A stretch of 48,804 bases of DNA from Alphaproteobacteria bacterium (lineage in GTDB: Bacteria; Pseudomonadota; Alphaproteobacteria; Caulobacterales; Maricaulaceae), in the NCBI GenBank assembly GCA_024278915.1, contig JAJRSG010000301.1, positions 1 through 48,804 on the forward strand. Reading direction: 5' to 3'. The position numbers and the translations under genes are program-made. Within the stretch, counting starts at the first letter, position 1; each line of letters starts with the position of its first letter. The notes under the pieces are model-generated. The model saw only the letters and a list, made by a program, of their open reading frames with translations. It was not told where the DNA came from and did no database searches. Below are positions 40,893 to 47,541 of the stretch, piece after piece.

Positions 40893-41498
40893 TTATGTAG
40901 TATCCAATGAATACGTCCTAGAACTGTTGTCGTAGCATTTAGTTTTAAAGCTATAATTATCTATCCATTCGATGCCGTGCAATTCCGAGTCTTCAAGCGA
41001 AACGGTTTTAATTTCAGGCAATGGAAGCACCAGAGGATTGCTAAAGTCATACACTCTAACTTCATATGGGCAGGCCCAGAAACAACCAATTACTGCTAAG
41101 CTTTCACCGCTAGGAGAAAAATAAAAATCAGACCAAATGAACCCATCCTCAGGAGGGCTGTAACTTTTCATCTTCTTCGACGACAAATCAATCACAGTCT
41201 GCCCCCCACAAAGAACCTCTCCGCCAACCAAATACTCCATATTTTCGTTTATGAGCCATTCATGAAAAAAGCTGTGATAGTCCGTAAAAAAATCGAACAT
41301 TAACTCATTGGATTGGTTGTCAAAAACTCTAACCTTCGTGACCGTCCAGTTAACTTCAGGCTTACTTTGTAGATATCCAACAGTTTCCACCTTGTAACTG
41401 CCAGTTGGTGAAGTAGAGCTTGATCGACTTCCTGCGATTATTTTTTTGGGGTCGAAAAATTTCTTTATTTCTGATCTCGATATCAAAATATTGTTCAT
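40893..41498 (-). CDS. Unknown protein, propeller-like motif
   Basis: Not recognised; about 201 aa from the ATG at 41498 (the track uses a TTG eight codons upstream). The stretch SDFYFSPSGESLAVIGCFWA followed by YEVRVYDFSNP resembles one blade of a WD/TolB-type beta-propeller, and no signal peptide is seen. AT-rich, with no ribosome site of note and no operon partner. Confidence 0.6.
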   Translation of the reverse strand: MNNILISRSEIKKFFDPKKIIAGSRSSSTSPTGSYKVETVGYLQSKPEVNWTVTKVRVFDNQSNELMFDFFTDYHSFFHEWLINENMEYLVGGEVLCGGQTVIDLSSKKMKSYSPPEDGFIWSDFYFSPSGESLAVIGCFWACPYEVRVYDFSNPLVLPLPEIKTVSLEDSELHGIEWIDNYSFKTKCYDNSSRTYSLDTT

Positions 41499-41613
41499 AT
41501 AGCTGTATGTATTACATTTCAAAACTCAAGTATAGAGTCCGCTTCTGCCTCCAAAGCAAACGCCTCATTCGTTGTTCATGTTTGTGTAGGTGGGCGTCTC
41601 GTCAATTGCCTCA

Positions 41614-41642
41614 CTGGATCCCGCCTTCGCGGGGATGAGCGG
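41614..41642. repeat. Solo REP-like repeat, variant of the 38.9-39.0 kb repeats
   Basis: CTGGATCCCGCCTTCGCGGGGATGAGCGG matches the right arm at 38994-39022 with a few changes. Confidence 0.75.
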
Positions 41643-41671
41643 AAACTTGGTGTTGAGTTGAGGTGGAGAGA

Positions 41672-42412
41672 TTAGCCCTTAATAAAATGTTCTAGGGCTT
41701 CCGAGAGGTGGGCGGCGAGTTTGGTGGCTTTTGGGTCTGTGTCGATTAGGTCTTGGCGCACTTCCAGTGTGATATGGCGCAGGCCACGGGGGAGGACATG
41801 GCGGTCCATGGTGTGGTTTAGTTTCAAGGCAGAATAGGGTTCATTCAGGCCGATGCGGTAGGGGTGAACCTGTTAGATTTCTGTCTTGACCGCTTGCGCT
41901 TTGTCTTCGTCCACTTTCCACAACAGGCCGATATCTAGTTCGCGGCGTTTGCCTTGGCTTGGCTTTGGGGTGAAACTGTGAATAGAGATGATTAAGGGGT
42001 CAATGAAACGGTTCACCGCCGCGTCAATTTGTTGTTCCAAGACCCGGTGATAGGGTTCGTAATAATTATCGATGCGGGCGTGACGTTCCGAATTGGTCAA
42101 GTTTTGGTTACCGGGGATCAAGGTGCCGTCACTGATTTCTGGGATCAGGCCGGGGTCGTTTACATCCCGATTAGGGTCGATGAGCAGTCGGGTAAAACCG
42201 GCGAGAAGTCCGGCCGCGCCAAAGGTTTTGCAAAATTCCTGTGTCAGTTTCGCCGCGCCAATGTCCCACCCGATATGGCGGTTTAGGTCTTGGGCAGTAA
42301 GGCCCAGATTGTGATATTTTTGCGGAACAGCATTGGTGGCGTGATCGCAAAAGCAGAACACGGGCGAGCCTGATTTTTCAGGCAAAACAATGGTGGGGAT
42401 GTCTTTATCCAT
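41672..42412 (-). pseudogene. N-formylglutamate amidohydrolase family gene with one in-frame stop
   Basis: The family hydrolyses N-formylglutamate or similar N-acyl amino acids. The N-terminal 179 codons carry CDHATNAVP, LNRHIGWDIGAA, GFTRLLIDPNRDVN and IISIHSFTP. A TAA at 41873-41875 then interrupts, but the same frame continues for 66 more codons with the proper family C-terminus (HPYRIGLNEPYSA, then LRHITLEVRQDLI), ending at 41672. Total 246 sense-equivalent codons is the usual size. One base change (for example GAA or CAA to TAA) explains it; no frameshift is needed. The truncated product would lack the C-terminal part of the fold. Confidence 0.85.
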
Positions 42413-42451
42413 AGGGCAGACTTATGGCGGGTTTCGTATGAAGTAAAGGGT

Positions 42452-43588
42452 TTATATGCCGACGAGAGTTTCTTTCACCAGATGGTCGACAACGGCTTTT
42501 AGGGCGTCTTCTTTGTTGGCTCCTTTTTGGGTTTCTCTCTCATACACTTCCACTTGTCGGAAGGCGCTGGAGCCGCGCTCAATGATGGTGCGGGTGTGGA
42601 GAAGTTCTTTCTCGCAGCCCAAGGCTTGGGCGTGTTGCATTAAAAACCCGACCAGTTCTTCATTTAGTTCTTTGAACGGTTTGCATTCGCCTTTGCCAAA
42701 GTCGATCAATTTGCCTTTCACGCCGAACCTTTGGGCCAGCCAGCGGTTCTCTGCGATCAGCAGTGCCGGATAGATGCGCCATTTAATATTGCGCTCTTTG
42801 AGGTGTACAAACATGCGGGTCAGGCATTGATACATGGCGACAATGGCCAGCGTGTCTTCCATGCGCGTACACATGTCACAAATGCGCGCTTCCAGAGTGG
42901 GGAAACGTACAGAGGGGCGAATGTCCCACCATAATTTAGAAGCATCTTCGATGACGCCGGCGCCCACGAGCGTACCGACCAAGCGTTCATATTCGCCGAT
43001 GGATGTCATGGATTCGGGAATGCCGGTGCGGGGCATGCCGTCAAATACGGACAGGCGGTAAGATTGCATGCCCATAATATCTCCTTCCCAAAACGGCGAG
43101 GAAGTGGTCAGGGCCAACATGTGCGGCAGGAAATACCGCATTTGGTTCATCACATCGATACGCATGCCGGGGTCAAGGATTCCCACATGTACATGGGTGC
43201 CACAAATCAACATGCGGCGGATGGCTCCTTGCAAGTCCTTGTCCATTTTGGAATAGCGTTCGGCCCGTGTGGGTTGTTGCTCGCGCCATGAGGTAAAAGG
43301 ATGGGTGCTGGCCGCCATGAGTTGCAGGTCAAACTTTCCGGCAATGTGGGAAAGCGTGCCGCGCATATGGGTCAGGTTTTCTCGTACATCGTCGAGGTTC
43401 TGGCAAATCGGCGTAGCGATTTCGATTTGGCATTGCAAGAATTCTGGCGTTACATGATCGCCAAGGGCTTCTTTACAGGCCTTGAAAAATTCTTCGGGAG
43501 GTTGGGCGGCGGCGGCGCGCGTTTCTGGATTCACAAGTAGATATTCTTCTTCCACACCCAGTGTCGGCCAAAAATCATCTAAACGCAT
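42452..43588 (-). CDS. YbdK-type carboxylate-amine ligase (glutamate-cysteine ligase family 2)
   Basis: The 378-aa product from 43588 (MRLDDFWPTLGVEEEYLLV, ribosome site GGGGGG) has the family motifs GVEEEYLL, FLQCQIEIATP, CGTHVHVGI, the SPFWEG loop and ISSFEARICDM-like FPTLEARICDM. Such enzymes have weak glutamate-cysteine ligase activity; the natural substrate is not known. The track's start 40 codons upstream is not supported. It lies 39 bp upstream of the N-formylglutamate amidohydrolase pseudogene, on the same strand. Confidence 0.92.
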   Translation of the reverse strand: MRLDDFWPTLGVEEEYLLVNPETRAAAAQPPEEFFKACKEALGDHVTPEFLQCQIEIATPICQNLDDVRENLTHMRGTLSHIAGKFDLQLMAASTHPFTSWREQQPTRAERYSKMDKDLQGAIRRMLICGTHVHVGILDPGMRIDVMNQMRYFLPHMLALTTSSPFWEGDIMGMQSYRLSVFDGMPRTGIPESMTSIGEYERLVGTLVGAGVIEDASKLWWDIRPSVRFPTLEARICDMCTRMEDTLAIVAMYQCLTRMFVHLKERNIKWRIYPALLIAENRWLAQRFGVKGKLIDFGKGECKPFKELNEELVGFLMQHAQALGCEKELLHTRTIIERGSSAFRQVEVYERETQKGANKEDALKAVVDHLVKETLVGI

Positions 43589-43731
43589 AAAACCCCCCAT
43601 TTTGATTGCAGAATAACAGAAAACCTTCATTTGTAAAATGGCTGAAATTAATGGTTTTATTGTCTTGAGCCGCGGCCTGAAAAGATGTATCCCCTTGCGC
43701 ACTGCCAAACCACTAGGCAGAACATGGATAT

Positions 43732-43825
43732 GGTGAGGTGGCCGAGTGGTTTAAGGCGCACACGTTTTTATGGCTTGACCATAAAAACCATCTATGTTTG
43801 AAAGCGTGCGCTTATCTGAAACCAC
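43732..43825 (+). repeat. Duplicated tRNA-Ser 5' half running into a large imperfect hairpin
   Basis: The first 30 nt (GGTGAGGTGGCCGAGTGGTT...) are identical to positions 1-30 of the tRNA-Ser gene 122 bp downstream. From 43746 on the sequence folds into a hairpin: GTGGTTT/AAACCAC, GCGCAC/GTGCGC and TTTTTATGG/CCATAAAAA around CTTGA. GAAAGCGTG, part of the 3' anticodon stem, follows an insert of about 35 nt. There is no T arm or 3' acceptor, so it is not a functional tRNA. Confidence 0.75.
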
Positions 43826-43853
43826 TTTGGTTAAGTGCAGAGTATAAATGATT

Positions 43854-43944
43854 GGTGAGGTGGCCGAGTGGTTTAAGGCGCACGCTTGGAAAGCGTGTGT
43901 GCGTTAATAGCGTACCGTGGGTTCGAATCCCATCCTCACCTCCA
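43854..43944 (+). tRNA. tRNA-Ser (anticodon GGA)
   Basis: The cloverleaf is complete: acceptor GGTGAGG/CCTCACC, D arm GCCGAGTGGTTTAAGGC, anticodon stem-loop CACGC-TTGGAAA-GCGTG with anticodon GGA (reads UCC/UCU), a long variable arm typical of class II tRNA-Ser, T arm GTGGG-TTCGAAT-CCCAT and an encoded CCA. The discriminator base is T (U73), where tRNA-Ser usually has G. It ends the core region and borders the accessory segment. Confidence 0.95.
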
Positions 43945-44284
43945 CTCCCTTCTCGTACAAACCTACTGACAATGTCCACGTTCCGATCCGAAGGCGAGAG
44001 CGAAAAGCGCAGAAGTTTCGATCGATAAAAGTTACACAAAGATGGTGATCCGCTCACCGTCAAATCTACAACTTATTTCACCTCAGATGTCATTTAATCT
44101 CAAGACATTCATTTCGAAAATTCAGACATCAAGCCCAAAAGCAGTGGAATGTTGTAACGGCATCAGTGTACGCTTAGAAAAAGAACACAGGCCAAAACTC
44201 AACCGACCTCGTCTACTTGACAAAGCCGTCGGCATATAAGGAATAGTTTCGGTTACTGTCACCGTAATTAAAGCCGATGCGACT
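43945..44284. other. Non-coding stretch after tRNA-Ser with repeat remnants
   Basis: No gene was supported. It contains CTGACAATGTCC at about 43964, a weak echo of the MITE end, one copy of the 26-nt palindromic repeat (44242-44267), and TTGTAACGGCATCAG (44152-44166), found inverted beside the second MITE. The sequence looks like degraded mobile DNA. Confidence 0.4.
44242..44267. repeat. 26-nt palindrome-containing repeat, copy 1
   Basis: AATAGTTTCGGTTACTGTCACCGTAA; copy 2 at 47719-47744 differs at one base. The core GGTNACTGTCACC is an imperfect palindrome. Confidence 0.8.
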
Positions 44285-44650
44285 TCATCCAACATCAGCT
44301 ACGTTGCTGGCTTCTATGATTTTTTCTAGCTCGGAATAATATAAACCTTGGGCACACGTATCTAAGTCAAAAAACAATTCCCAAAAACCATCTTCCAACC
44401 ATGCCTTTGGAGCAAATTCAATCAGGCCGTTTTTAAATTTCTTTATTTTCCAATTACTCGGAGGCGTGTCATCAATAATATCAAAATCTTTGATAGGAAA
44501 CATTGCAGGAATAGCATTGTTCTCTGTTACTAACCGTAAATTAATACAATTCCCAATTTCGATTTCGAGAGAAATCACATCGTAAACCTTTTCAGGTACC
44601 AGCCAACCTAAATGATGTTTAGAAATTATTTTTTTTAAAGTCACTTTCAT
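44285..44650 (-). CDS. Unknown 121-aa protein
   Basis: Not recognised. Begins MKVTLKKIISKHHLGWLVPE and is acidic, with FPIKDFDIIDDTPPSNWKI in the middle; soluble, no signal peptide. Size and character recall small immunity-type proteins, but no family can be named. AT-rich, within the mobile segment; no neighbour in the same unit. Confidence 0.55.
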   Translation of the reverse strand: MKVTLKKIISKHHLGWLVPEKVYDVISLEIEIGNCINLRLVTENNAIPAMFPIKDFDIIDDTPPSNWKIKKFKNGLIEFAPKAWLEDGFWELFFDLDTCAQGLYYSELEKIIEASNVADVG

Positions 44651-44756
44651 GTATAGTCTACCTAGAATTAAAAACTACTTTATAGTCAGAACCATAGTAA
44701 ATTACACCTTCAGAGTTTTGGTAAAAATGAACCTGAAAATTTCCCGACGGTGATTT

Positions 44757-44973
44757 GGCATTGTCAGAGGAAAGTCTTTAGTTTGCAAGATTTGATTTTA
44801 GCATGAACTTAGGCTGCAATTTGTCTCCATTCGGCAAGCGCTAAATCTCGATATTTCTTGAAAATATCTCTGCCTGATCGTTATGGTGTTTTGTGGTATT
44901 TAAATAAATTGCTCATGACAAATGTCTAGCTATCAACTATTTATCAATTATGAATTTTCCTCTGACAATGCCC
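44757..44973 (-). mobile_element. IS6-like MITE, copy 1 (internally deleted insertion sequence)
   Basis: About 217 bp with inverted ends GGCATTGTCAGAGGAAAG / TTTTCCTCTGACAATGCCC. Read on the minus strand it retains a transposase start (MSNLFKYHKTP, then a stop) joined to a C-terminal remnant (FKKYRDLALAEWRQIAA then stop). The N-terminus and the GGC-TGT type ends suggest the IS6 family. It is the inverted partner of copy 2. No target duplication is obvious. Confidence 0.8.
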
Positions 44974-45044
44974 ACATAGGACCGAATTTCTAAATAAGGC
45001 TGACCGTGTGATAACGATAGGACAAGGCCAATAGCTGAGCCTTT

Positions 45045-46619
45045 TTATAGTTTATTAAGTTTGATTTGCGTTGGTGGAAGTTGAACTGGCGTACTGCAAT
45101 TTTGAACATAAGTAGTTTCTTTTTCTTCGACTAGCAGAATGAGTGTAATTTCTTTATTTTTACCGCAAGCGTCAATAGTGTAATCAATGTATTCATTTGT
45201 CTCGTTTACTGGGTCGATACCGTCCAGGCTTTTAATAATAGGCGAGGACTTGAATGGGTCACACGAAGAAACTGCATATAAGCGATTTTTTTGATCAACC
45301 CCAACACCAAAAAACTCTCCGCAAGCGGATAAGACTATAGCTTGGGTTGCTGCTATTTGGAGACTAAAAGTTGATGGTGTTATTTTATCGAATTCTGCTC
45401 CTTGCTTTTCGAATTGAGCTAAAATCTCGTCCCAGCGACTCGTCCCTTGACCTGAAACGATTGTTTCTATGGAACTCAGGGCATTTAAGTTTGAAGACTT
45501 AATGATAGAATTGAATTTAGACGATAGCTCTATCTCTTCTTCAGGAGCTTCCCAAAGCTGGCGCCATAAATCGAATTCTGTATGGTCTTCATTTTTTATC
45601 TGGAAGTCTCTGATTGCAATCCAATTCATGAATGCCCCACATGTATACCTAGATCTACTTTTTATTGAGCCTATGGCATCCTTCATAGAAAGGTGCCGCA
45701 ACATATTGCTGCAATTATTATATGCTCTTTCTAGTTTTTTCTCGATTGTGATCTCAGGTTCAGATAGCTTCGAAGTCGCGTGCCAAGAGGCATATTCAGC
45801 AGCCCCCTCGTGGATCCACCAATTACTCGACTGTTCCGCTGCTTTAGGTGTCCACAGATGAAACAGCTCGTGAGCAATGAAGTCCTTTGAATTTGATATG
45901 TATTTTTTTGTTGGTCTGTAATTGTCCGGAAAATGATACCTCAGGAAAACTACACCATTTTGGGTCGTATCACCTCGATTAAACGACTTCTCAGATGGTT
46001 TACCCAATACAATTATTAGTGGTTTTTGATCGGGGACACTTGACATTTGCTCCGAATAATATGTTAAAATTTCATCGGTAAAGGAGAATAGGTTTTGTTC
46101 AAATTCCTTTGGTAGCGAAACACCTTTGAGCCAATCAAACCTTTCTGAGGTCGCAGATATTGATCCCAACAATAGATATCCATTAAAATTATGTGATCTT
46201 TCAAATTTTGTTTGAGTGCCTGATAGAGCTGTGTAGACAATTGAACTGACTCTGCCATTAGGCAAAACGGGCGGCGCGTATAGCACGTAAGTATTTTGTG
46301 AAATCTCGGTTAATAATGGATAAATTGAATTCTCTTCTTCTACATCTAATTCAATTGATAATTGGAAGTTACTTTTTGGATTTTCGAATTTAAGAACTCC
46401 ATCAGTGATTTTTCCATCTGGGGTTTGAATTTTTGCAGATGGATTCCTGTACCCCGGTTCAGTGAATTCGATAAACGCCCTTGGTTGACCCAAGGCATAA
46501 TTTATCACTATTCCGCTATCAGTTTCGAATATCTCGATTGTGCTATTGTTTTTGGGTGAGTTACACGAAGATAGAAGAAAATATAAGATTGTAAGTGTTA
46601 TAAGTGTTCCACGGGCCAT
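45045..46619 (-). CDS. Lipoprotein with gluzincin (M1/M61-like) metallopeptidase motif
   Basis: The 524-aa product starts with a lipoprotein signal (LITLTILYFLLSSC). A beta-rich N-terminal half is followed by AHELFHLWTPKA near residue 250 (HExxH zinc motif) and WWIHEGAAEYASW 20 residues on (the third ligand Glu of gluzincins). Order and spacing resemble M61 glycyl-aminopeptidase-type enzymes. No substrate can be named. It is the only gene between two inverted MITE copies, like cargo. Confidence 0.75.
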   Translation of the reverse strand: MARGTLITLTILYFLLSSCNSPKNNSTIEIFETDSGIVINYALGQPRAFIEFTEPGYRNPSAKIQTPDGKITDGVLKFENPKSNFQLSIELDVEEENSIYPLLTEISQNTYVLYAPPVLPNGRVSSIVYTALSGTQTKFERSHNFNGYLLLGSISATSERFDWLKGVSLPKEFEQNLFSFTDEILTYYSEQMSSVPDQKPLIIVLGKPSEKSFNRGDTTQNGVVFLRYHFPDNYRPTKKYISNSKDFIAHELFHLWTPKAAEQSSNWWIHEGAAEYASWHATSKLSEPEITIEKKLERAYNNCSNMLRHLSMKDAIGSIKSRSRYTCGAFMNWIAIRDFQIKNEDHTEFDLWRQLWEAPEEEIELSSKFNSIIKSSNLNALSSIETIVSGQGTSRWDEILAQFEKQGAEFDKITPSTFSLQIAATQAIVLSACGEFFGVGVDQKNRLYAVSSCDPFKSSPIIKSLDGIDPVNETNEYIDYTIDACGKNKEITLILLVEEKETTYVQNCSTPVQLPPTQIKLNKL

Positions 46620-46926: not shown

Positions 46927-47316
46927 TTACGCCTTTAGATTTTTTGCAATCCATTTCGTTAAATCAAGTTCTGATAAATTGCCTGAAGCCAATTTCATAA
47001 ATGTGTCGTATTTTTCAGTTTGGCAAGTTTTTAATTTTGCGTTGTTTAGATGCAAAAATAGCTGGCAAACGATTAAAGCTGTACGTTTATTGCCGTCTAC
47101 GAACGGATGGTTCATGGCAATACCGTAGGCATAACTTGCGGCTAAAGCGGCAAGGGAGGGTTTGGGATTTGAATAATGGTAGAGGCTTTTGGGCTTACTC
47201 AAAGCAGATTCGAGAAGCCCATCATCTCTAATACCTTCACCACCGCCATGCTCAGCTAGCTGTCTTCTGTGGATGGCTAATACAACATCATTCCGCACCC
47301 AGTTTAATTCTCTCAT
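46927..47316 (-). CDS. doc: Death-on-curing (Doc) family toxin
   Basis: Doc toxins are Fic-fold kinases that phosphorylate EF-Tu and stop translation. The 129-aa sequence carries the Fic-type motif HPFVDGNKRTA, preceded by GIRDDGLLESALSKPKSLYHY and followed by a helical C-terminus. The ATG immediately follows the antitoxin stop (TAGATG), so the pair is translationally coupled. The partner is AbrB/MazE-type rather than Phd. Confidence 0.93.
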   Translation of the reverse strand: MRELNWVRNDVVLAIHRRQLAEHGGGEGIRDDGLLESALSKPKSLYHYSNPKPSLAALAASYAYGIAMNHPFVDGNKRTALIVCQLFLHLNNAKLKTCQTEKYDTFMKLASGNLSELDLTKWIAKNLKA

Positions 47317-47541
47317 CTATTCTGCAAGCTTTTTAAGAGCGTCGCGGTCCTCACGCATAATCAACTCTGCGGCCTCTATTTGCATGGAAAAGCTAGGGTC
47401 ATAAGGCGTGAGCTCTATACCGCTAGGTGTTTCAATCACAAATAGGGTGTCCCCTTTTTCTACGCGGAGTTTTGATAAAATTGCTTTTGGTAACACAATA
47501 CCTGTTGAGTTACCCACGGTAGTTATTTTTAATGCAGTCAT
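47317..47541 (-). CDS. AbrB/MazE/SpoVT-type antitoxin
   Basis: The 74-aa protein has the swapped-hairpin AbrB DNA-binding domain at residues 4-45 (ITTVGNSTGIVLPKAILSKL and EKGDTLFV); the acidic/helical C-terminal tail would bind and neutralise Doc. A strong AAGGA ribosome site precedes it. It is the first gene of a two-gene operon and probably represses that operon through the palindrome just upstream. Confidence 0.9.
   Translation of the reverse strand: MTALKITTVGNSTGIVLPKAILSKLRVEKGDTLFVIETPSGIELTPYDPSFSMQIEAAELIMREDRDALKKLAE

Follow-up and report, generated by a model that had tools for sequence, protein, structure and literature searches.

A conserved structured unit with a partial tRNA copy and an antisense segment upstream of tRNA-Ser(GGA) in the Hellea/Robiginitomaculum family

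The window, as the whole analysed stretch of 48,804 nucleotides is called here, carries an intact tRNA-Ser(GGA) gene with an encoded CCA at positions 43854–43944 of the plus strand (ARAGORN; Rfam RF00005, 60.7 bits). On the same strand, a copy of nucleotides 1–30 of this tRNA, comprising the 5′ strand of the acceptor stem, the D-arm and the 5′ strand of the anticodon stem, lies at 43732–43761 with 100% identity to 43854–43883; no tRNA was called at this half copy by ARAGORN. The initial annotation had described an exact copy of the tRNA-Ser 5′ half 122 bp upstream of the tRNA, which was borne out and could be extended to a direct repeat of 31 nt with no mismatches (43731–43761 and 43853–43883, start-to-start spacing of 122). 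The half copy is referred to below as region 1 and the first 45 nt of the tRNA as region 3. On the minus strand, genes for an N-formylglutamate amidohydrolase (PF05013) and a GCS2 carboxylate-amine ligase (PF04107) occupy 41873–43708, with the 5′ end of the GCS2-type gene apparently directed towards the tRNA-Ser(GGA) leader, here as in several relatives. A Fic/Doc-family protein (PF02661) is encoded approximately 3 kb downstream of the tRNA (46927–47541, minus strand). Directly upstream of its gene a 74-aa AbrB/MazE-like ORF was recognised by eye, the two being likely to form a Doc-type toxin-antitoxin pair.

A candidate tRNA promoter (TTGAGC-17 nt-TATCCC) was placed by eye at 43665–43693 (+), 5′ of the whole unit, by analogy with relatives that are free of the element, such as L008, where TTGAGC-17-TATCCC stands immediately 5′ of the tRNA. 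A consensus scan gave no call for this promoter in the window; tRNA-type promoters were also seen by eye 5′ of the corresponding leader in relatives. It is followed by leader 1 (43694–43731, +), a sequence with partial likeness to leader 2 (AAACCACT...GCAGA...), the two leaders being near identical at L011, L065, L074 and L082. Between region 1 and the tRNA lie hairpin H1, with a 10-bp stem and a 5-nt loop (43764–43788, +), which was identified as an inverted repeat and from covariation among relatives; an antisense segment, region 2 (AAGCGTGCGCTTATCTGAAACCACT; 43802–43826, +), found from inverted repeats and duplex energies to be complementary to the half copy and to tRNA nucleotides ~11–34 (AAGCGTGCGC, AAACCACT); hairpin H3 of leader 2 (CACTT TGGTT AAGTG; 43823–43837, +), which reads CCTCGG..CCGAGG in other genera; and the end of leader 2, up to the tRNA 5′ end (43838–43853, +), delimited by sequence and, in relatives, by its evolving in concert with leader 1. 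The second leader and the promoter 5′ of the copy go beyond the initial annotation, as does the finding that the 3′ side of the hairpin is antisense to the real tRNA and not to the copy alone.

The three stems of 7, 6 and 9 bp that had been proposed for the remade sequence are present, with slightly different lengths of 8, 6 and 10 bp. The stem AGTGGTTT/AAACCACT pairs 43745–43752 with 43819–43826, the stem GCGCAC/GTGCGC pairs 43756–43761 with 43806–43811, and H1 is a perfect hairpin of 10 bp (GTTTTTATGG-CTTGA-CCATAAAAAC, 43764–43773 with 43779–43788). Pairing of regions 1 and 2 competes with H3. The 121-nt RNA was predicted to fold with −35.8 kcal/mol against −27.4 kcal/mol for shuffles (z −2.5), with 3 of 200 shuffled sequences folding equally well.

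The whole unit occurs a single time in the window genome. In a comparison of 63 tRNA genes drawn from the window genome and from genome G030 (G030's own tRNA-Ser(GGA) being absent from the 30 G030 loci taken in), only tRNA-Ser(GGA) was found to have an upstream copy of its 5′ end, of 30 nt, the next longest being 9 nt. In the same set its leader was also the one most antisense to the tRNA that follows (z −5.9). It should also be noted that a tRNA-Ala(GGC) of G030 (L179), which has no half copy, is preceded by a leader with rather strong complementarity to it (z −4.1). A tight Gln-Pro-Asn tRNA cluster with low scores, down to 36 bits, was also observed (L061; G000:C306:4219-4460) and is possibly phage-derived.

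Of 20 leaders that carry the half copy, 16 were significantly antisense to nucleotides 1–45 of the tRNA (p ≤ 0.023), and none of 20 lacking it reached p < 0.05; for the window leader the z-score was −4.0. Duplex energies showed region 2 to be complementary to both region 1 and region 3, the match to the tRNA reaching into the anticodon-arm GCTT and running somewhat beyond that to the half copy. Three genomes (G005, G099 and G102) carry the H2-AAACC-H3 module without the half copy, and in these the GTGC loop is altered: the loop GCGTGCGC is replaced by GCCTTCGC, GCCTTTGC or GCCTACGC in leaders without a half copy, where GTGC would match GCAC of the tRNA. The consequences for the tRNA were predicted in silico. 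With the half copy removed from antisense leaders, the probability of the tRNA acceptor stem fell below 0.15 in 10 of 20 sequences and was 0.7 in the window, compared with 0.83–0.98 for four natural leaders without a half copy. For the element alone, regions 1 and 2 were paired in 13 of 20 predictions (0.98/0.99 in the window). When the tRNA was added, the antisense moved to the tRNA in many predictions (0.71 in the window), and the equilibrium predictions had the half copy capturing the tRNA 3′ strand in many cases, that of the window among them. Addition of the half copy rescued the predicted anticodon stem in some sequences only. The full-length prediction for the window gave a misfolded tRNA, the energies used ignoring tRNA tertiary contacts, modifications and co-transcriptional order.

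To place the unit among its relatives, the sequence upstream of tRNA-Ser(GGA) was read in about 70 genomes. The same layout was found before this gene in approximately 20 genomes from six genera (g1, g6, g9, g12, g18 and g19) of the family of Hellea and Robiginitomaculum, the Robiginitomaculaceae (name per PMC11556061); both Robiginitomaculum antarcticum DSM 21748 and Hellea balneolensis DSM 19091 have the element. In the relatives, which the initial annotation had proposed to search for the hairpin, the whole unit recurs, with the common order of leader 1, GGTGAGGTGGCCGAGTGGTTTAAGGCGCAC, H1, antisense, H3 and tRNA. At six loci (L010, L011, L012, L019, L068 and L071) the 5′ part of the D-arm is swapped for another short stretch before the sequence returns to GGTTTAAGGCGCAC. 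A covariance model of the unit (R1) matched 19 family genomes, always at the tRNA-Ser(GGA) locus and never at a second one, the few minus-strand rows representing the same places on the opposite strand. Outside the family the model gave no matches in 299 genomes of the order under strict filters. One pattern match in a Methylococcaceae sequence (L070) was dismissed as chance, lying in an apparently protein-coding region with no tRNA nearby.

Mapping presence and absence onto a RecA tree required at least 11 changes, with the element scattered over deep branches. The element would thus appear to be old and often lost, as expected for a unit between direct repeats, yet kept in many lineages. Several degraded copies occur in the genus of the window genome (G006, G007 and G009), and in G096 the half copy and H1 remain while the antisense is eroded. 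In G106 (L110) a divergent pseudo-tRNA-Ser (AGTGAGGGGGCCGAGCGGTCGAAGGCG...) is located approximately 147 nt 5′ of tRNA-Ser(GGA), with more tRNA-like sequence (a D-arm and a stretch resembling an anticodon arm), a 10-bp hairpin without mismatches (GGCCAAAAGC TTT GCTTTTGGCC) and two more hairpins before the tRNA; this version may represent an intermediate stage of the element. Genome G084 was the only one of the family noticed to have two tRNA-Ser(GGA) loci (L103 and L104), both with H2/H3-like hairpins in their leaders and a degraded half copy.

The half copies share lineage-specific changes of the tRNA, such as GAGCGG in G030 and AGTGAGG in G086. The likeness reaches beyond the tRNA: 14 leader nucleotides before the half copy and before the tRNA were compared and showed an identity of 0.70 within genomes versus 0.50 between genomes, with none of 2000 permutations as high. 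As these leader letters are alike within genomes, the two copies evolve in concert, and gene conversion or exchange thus explains why the half copy is identical, at least in part. It follows that the exactness of the half copy is by itself no evidence of function. As to origin, the best reading of the sequences is an ancient tandem partial duplication of the leader together with the tRNA 5′ half, which would have taken place within the Hellea/Robiginitomaculum family. The suggestion of a tRNA-derived repeat made in the initial annotation holds in this sense of origin, the leader and 5′ half being repeated and evolving in concert, and fails in the sense of a dispersed repeat, which was rejected as model R1 gives one locus per genome.

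The part of the unit that is not tRNA-derived, from the half copy to the end of the antisense, was 69.7% identical between genera, compared with 50.6% for the 70-bp flanks upstream of the unit, 48.9% for those downstream of the tRNA and a shuffled background of approximately 48%. This value was obtained with 16 less eroded sequences, four eroded variants from the genus of the window genome being left out, and from genomes that had been chosen by the half-copy motif and not by the spacer. This spacer is out of reach of conversion from the tRNA gene. Within H1, double-sided changes were seen in 6 of 7 pairs, counted as sequences and not as events, and covariation over the whole structure was 0.328 compared with 0.148 for shuffled and at most 0.10 for slid alignments. 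The pairing of half copy and antisense (P1) was kept in 89% of cells and hardly varies, so that it is not proven by covariation. A cloverleaf-like, three-hairpin fold (M1) and a long-hairpin fold (M2) fitted equally well.

The chief rival to a functional leader is a relic without function, left by tandem partial duplication of the tRNA precursor, in which the half copy stays identical through gene conversion or unequal exchange and H1 is palindromic through template-switch replication errors. This is a possibility to be taken seriously, though we would sooner decide against it. The concerted evolution that reaches leader letters outside the tRNA (0.70 vs 0.50), the lineage-specific tRNA changes common to both copies in G030 and G086, the many losses on the RecA tree and the case of G096, with its half copy kept and antisense eroded, are all as such a relic would have it. 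However, the spacer lies beyond conversion by the tRNA and has stayed alike across deeply diverged genera whose flanks are at background, a neutral 120-bp unit between 30-bp direct repeats should go quickly and this one persists in six genera, and strong antisense is found only alongside the half copy. A decayed tandem tRNA gene is disfavoured by the same spacer conservation (69.7% vs 49–51% for the flanks), the spacer not drifting as the flanks do; no neighbouring pair of tRNA-Ser(GGA) genes, and so no intact tandem of the kind the initial annotation had envisaged in relatives, was found among the matches listed for 118 family genomes. The judgement that the remade sequence is unlikely to have arisen by simple decay is upheld by its conservation between genera where the flanks are not conserved.

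It is improbable that the leader instead works in trans after its cleavage, be it as a small RNA, tRNA-Ser mimic or sponge binding, for example, SerRS, a tRNA-modifying enzyme or, through its antisense, the mature tRNA. The conserved hairpin, the segment antisense to the D-arm and the anticodon arm, and co-transcription, as suggested by the upstream promoters, would suit such an RNA, and a tRNA sponge derived from a 3′ transcribed spacer is known in E. coli. The unit is, however, strictly linked in cis, at one locus per genome beside its tRNA, and no small RNA family was matched. Mimicry of tRNA-Ser, which had been raised in the initial annotation, finds a basis in the 5′ half and the conserved remade structure but not in the remainder, as both the T-arm and the 3′ acceptor strand are missing. 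In the genus of the window genome the insert could conceivably be in the main a second promoter in H1, arising by promoter duplication (TTGACC-16 nt-TATGAA/TTTGAA), and a second promoter there is possible: H1 of the window overlaps a promoter-like TTGACC-16-TTTGAA, CTTGACC in H1 is common to G000, G006 and G009, and the apparent promoter of G005, a genome without the half copy, is a CTTGACC-16-TATGAA that can be aligned with it. As the main explanation of the insert this is very unlikely, given that most other genera have the loop ACA, ATA or TAT and no such promoter, and that the consensus scan gives no call in the window. An integrated element at the tRNA, in remnant or minimal form and with the 5′ half as its attachment-site duplicate, is scarcely credible. 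Direct repeats of the tRNA 5′ half do flank a short insert, and relatives with and without the unit both exist, but the repeats reach into the leader and vary between genomes, unlike an att core, only 91 bp separate them, without integrase, cargo or any ORF of at least 80 aa, and the unit is structured and conserved. Phages and plasmids yielded ordinary tRNA-Ser only and a pattern search of viral contigs gave no matches, and in the family genomes the unit is present once per genome and always at the same gene; the remnant of attachment-site recombination put forward in the initial annotation was rejected after these searches.

We regard the unit as a conserved leader that forms part of the tRNA-Ser(GGA) precursor and acts in cis, with a 1-2-3 layout, a reading that the conservation and the fold predictions leave us holding at about an even balance. 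The unit most likely belongs to the tRNA-Ser(GGA) precursor transcript, as suggested by the promoters placed by eye, and the arrangement probably affects folding or maturation of this precursor; a role in cis on folding of tRNA-Ser(GGA) or its maturation by RNase P would be the best-supported one. Pairing between leader and tRNA can hinder bacterial RNase P (PMC9433436). In the proposed mechanism the transcript would present leader 1, region 1, H1, region 2, H3 and region 3 in that order. Regions 1 and 2 would pair first during transcription, keeping region 2 off the tRNA, which could then fold and be cut by RNase P. Where region 1 is absent, displaced or untranscribed, region 2 may pair with the tRNA at its D- and anticodon arms, trapping the precursor in a non-tRNA fold. 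The leader might in this way tune or insulate maturation of one tRNA, much as an attenuator would, with a copy of the tRNA serving as the protector; the switch step, like any signal, is hypothetical. It is a more speculative proposal, and one we put forward tentatively, that this constitutes self-mimicry, in which the upstream copy of the 5′ half competes with the tRNA for the built-in antisense and makes the precursor bistable, a tRNA-level attenuator. If true, such an attenuator is so far confined to one tRNA in one family. Bacterial tRNA supply is usually ascribed to promoters and degradation, and a conserved leader able to keep a single tRNA folded or unfolded would, if real, be a new control point affecting codons UCC and UCU. 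Even if the switch is wrong, what is left is a conserved structured RNA element new to Rfam and a clear case of a tRNA and its partial copy evolving in concert.

The element is unlike any Rfam family. A cmscan at E ≤ 1 over 41000–46500 and 43640–44060 returned, apart from the tRNA, only an sX4 hit below threshold and a weak plastid match; the sX4 hit (RF02223, 40.2 bits against a cut-off of 70) was discarded, the aligned part being tRNA-Ser itself. A literature search found no description of the element in the library consulted. The T-box riboswitch (RF00230) is likewise a leader RNA with tRNA recognition and alternative folds; it differs in preceding a synthetase or amino acid gene, whereas here the next gene downstream is the tRNA, and cmscan gave no T-box match. 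A tRNA pseudogene or tandem duplicate resembles the unit in its probable origin, a partial duplicate of leader and tRNA, but the 3′ part here is a new, conserved and covarying structure and not a decayed tRNA, and no intact tandem ancestor is among the matches listed. The nearest relative in kind we take to be the RtT repeats of the E. coli tyrT operon (RF00391), which are repeats of 100–200 bp adjoining a tRNA gene, each with a piece of the tRNA and co-transcribed with it. The RtT repeats lie 3′ of the tRNA and contain its 3′ end, in contrast to the unit described here, which lies 5′ and combines nucleotides 1–30 with an antisense; the RtT covariance model had no match by cmscan. Pre-tRNA leaders that slow RNase P (PMC9433436) are similar in that pairing between leader and tRNA would hinder maturation, and different in that a few nucleotides pair with the 3′ RCCA, compared with approximately 20 nt pairing with the D- and anticodon arms here and a protecting copy upstream. 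In layout the unit resembles 1-2-3 attenuators: region 2 is complementary to both regions 1 and 3, and its predicted pairing with one or the other would decide whether region 3 takes its productive fold. The differences are that a tRNA takes the place of the terminator or ribosome-binding site as region 3, and that region 1 duplicates it exactly.
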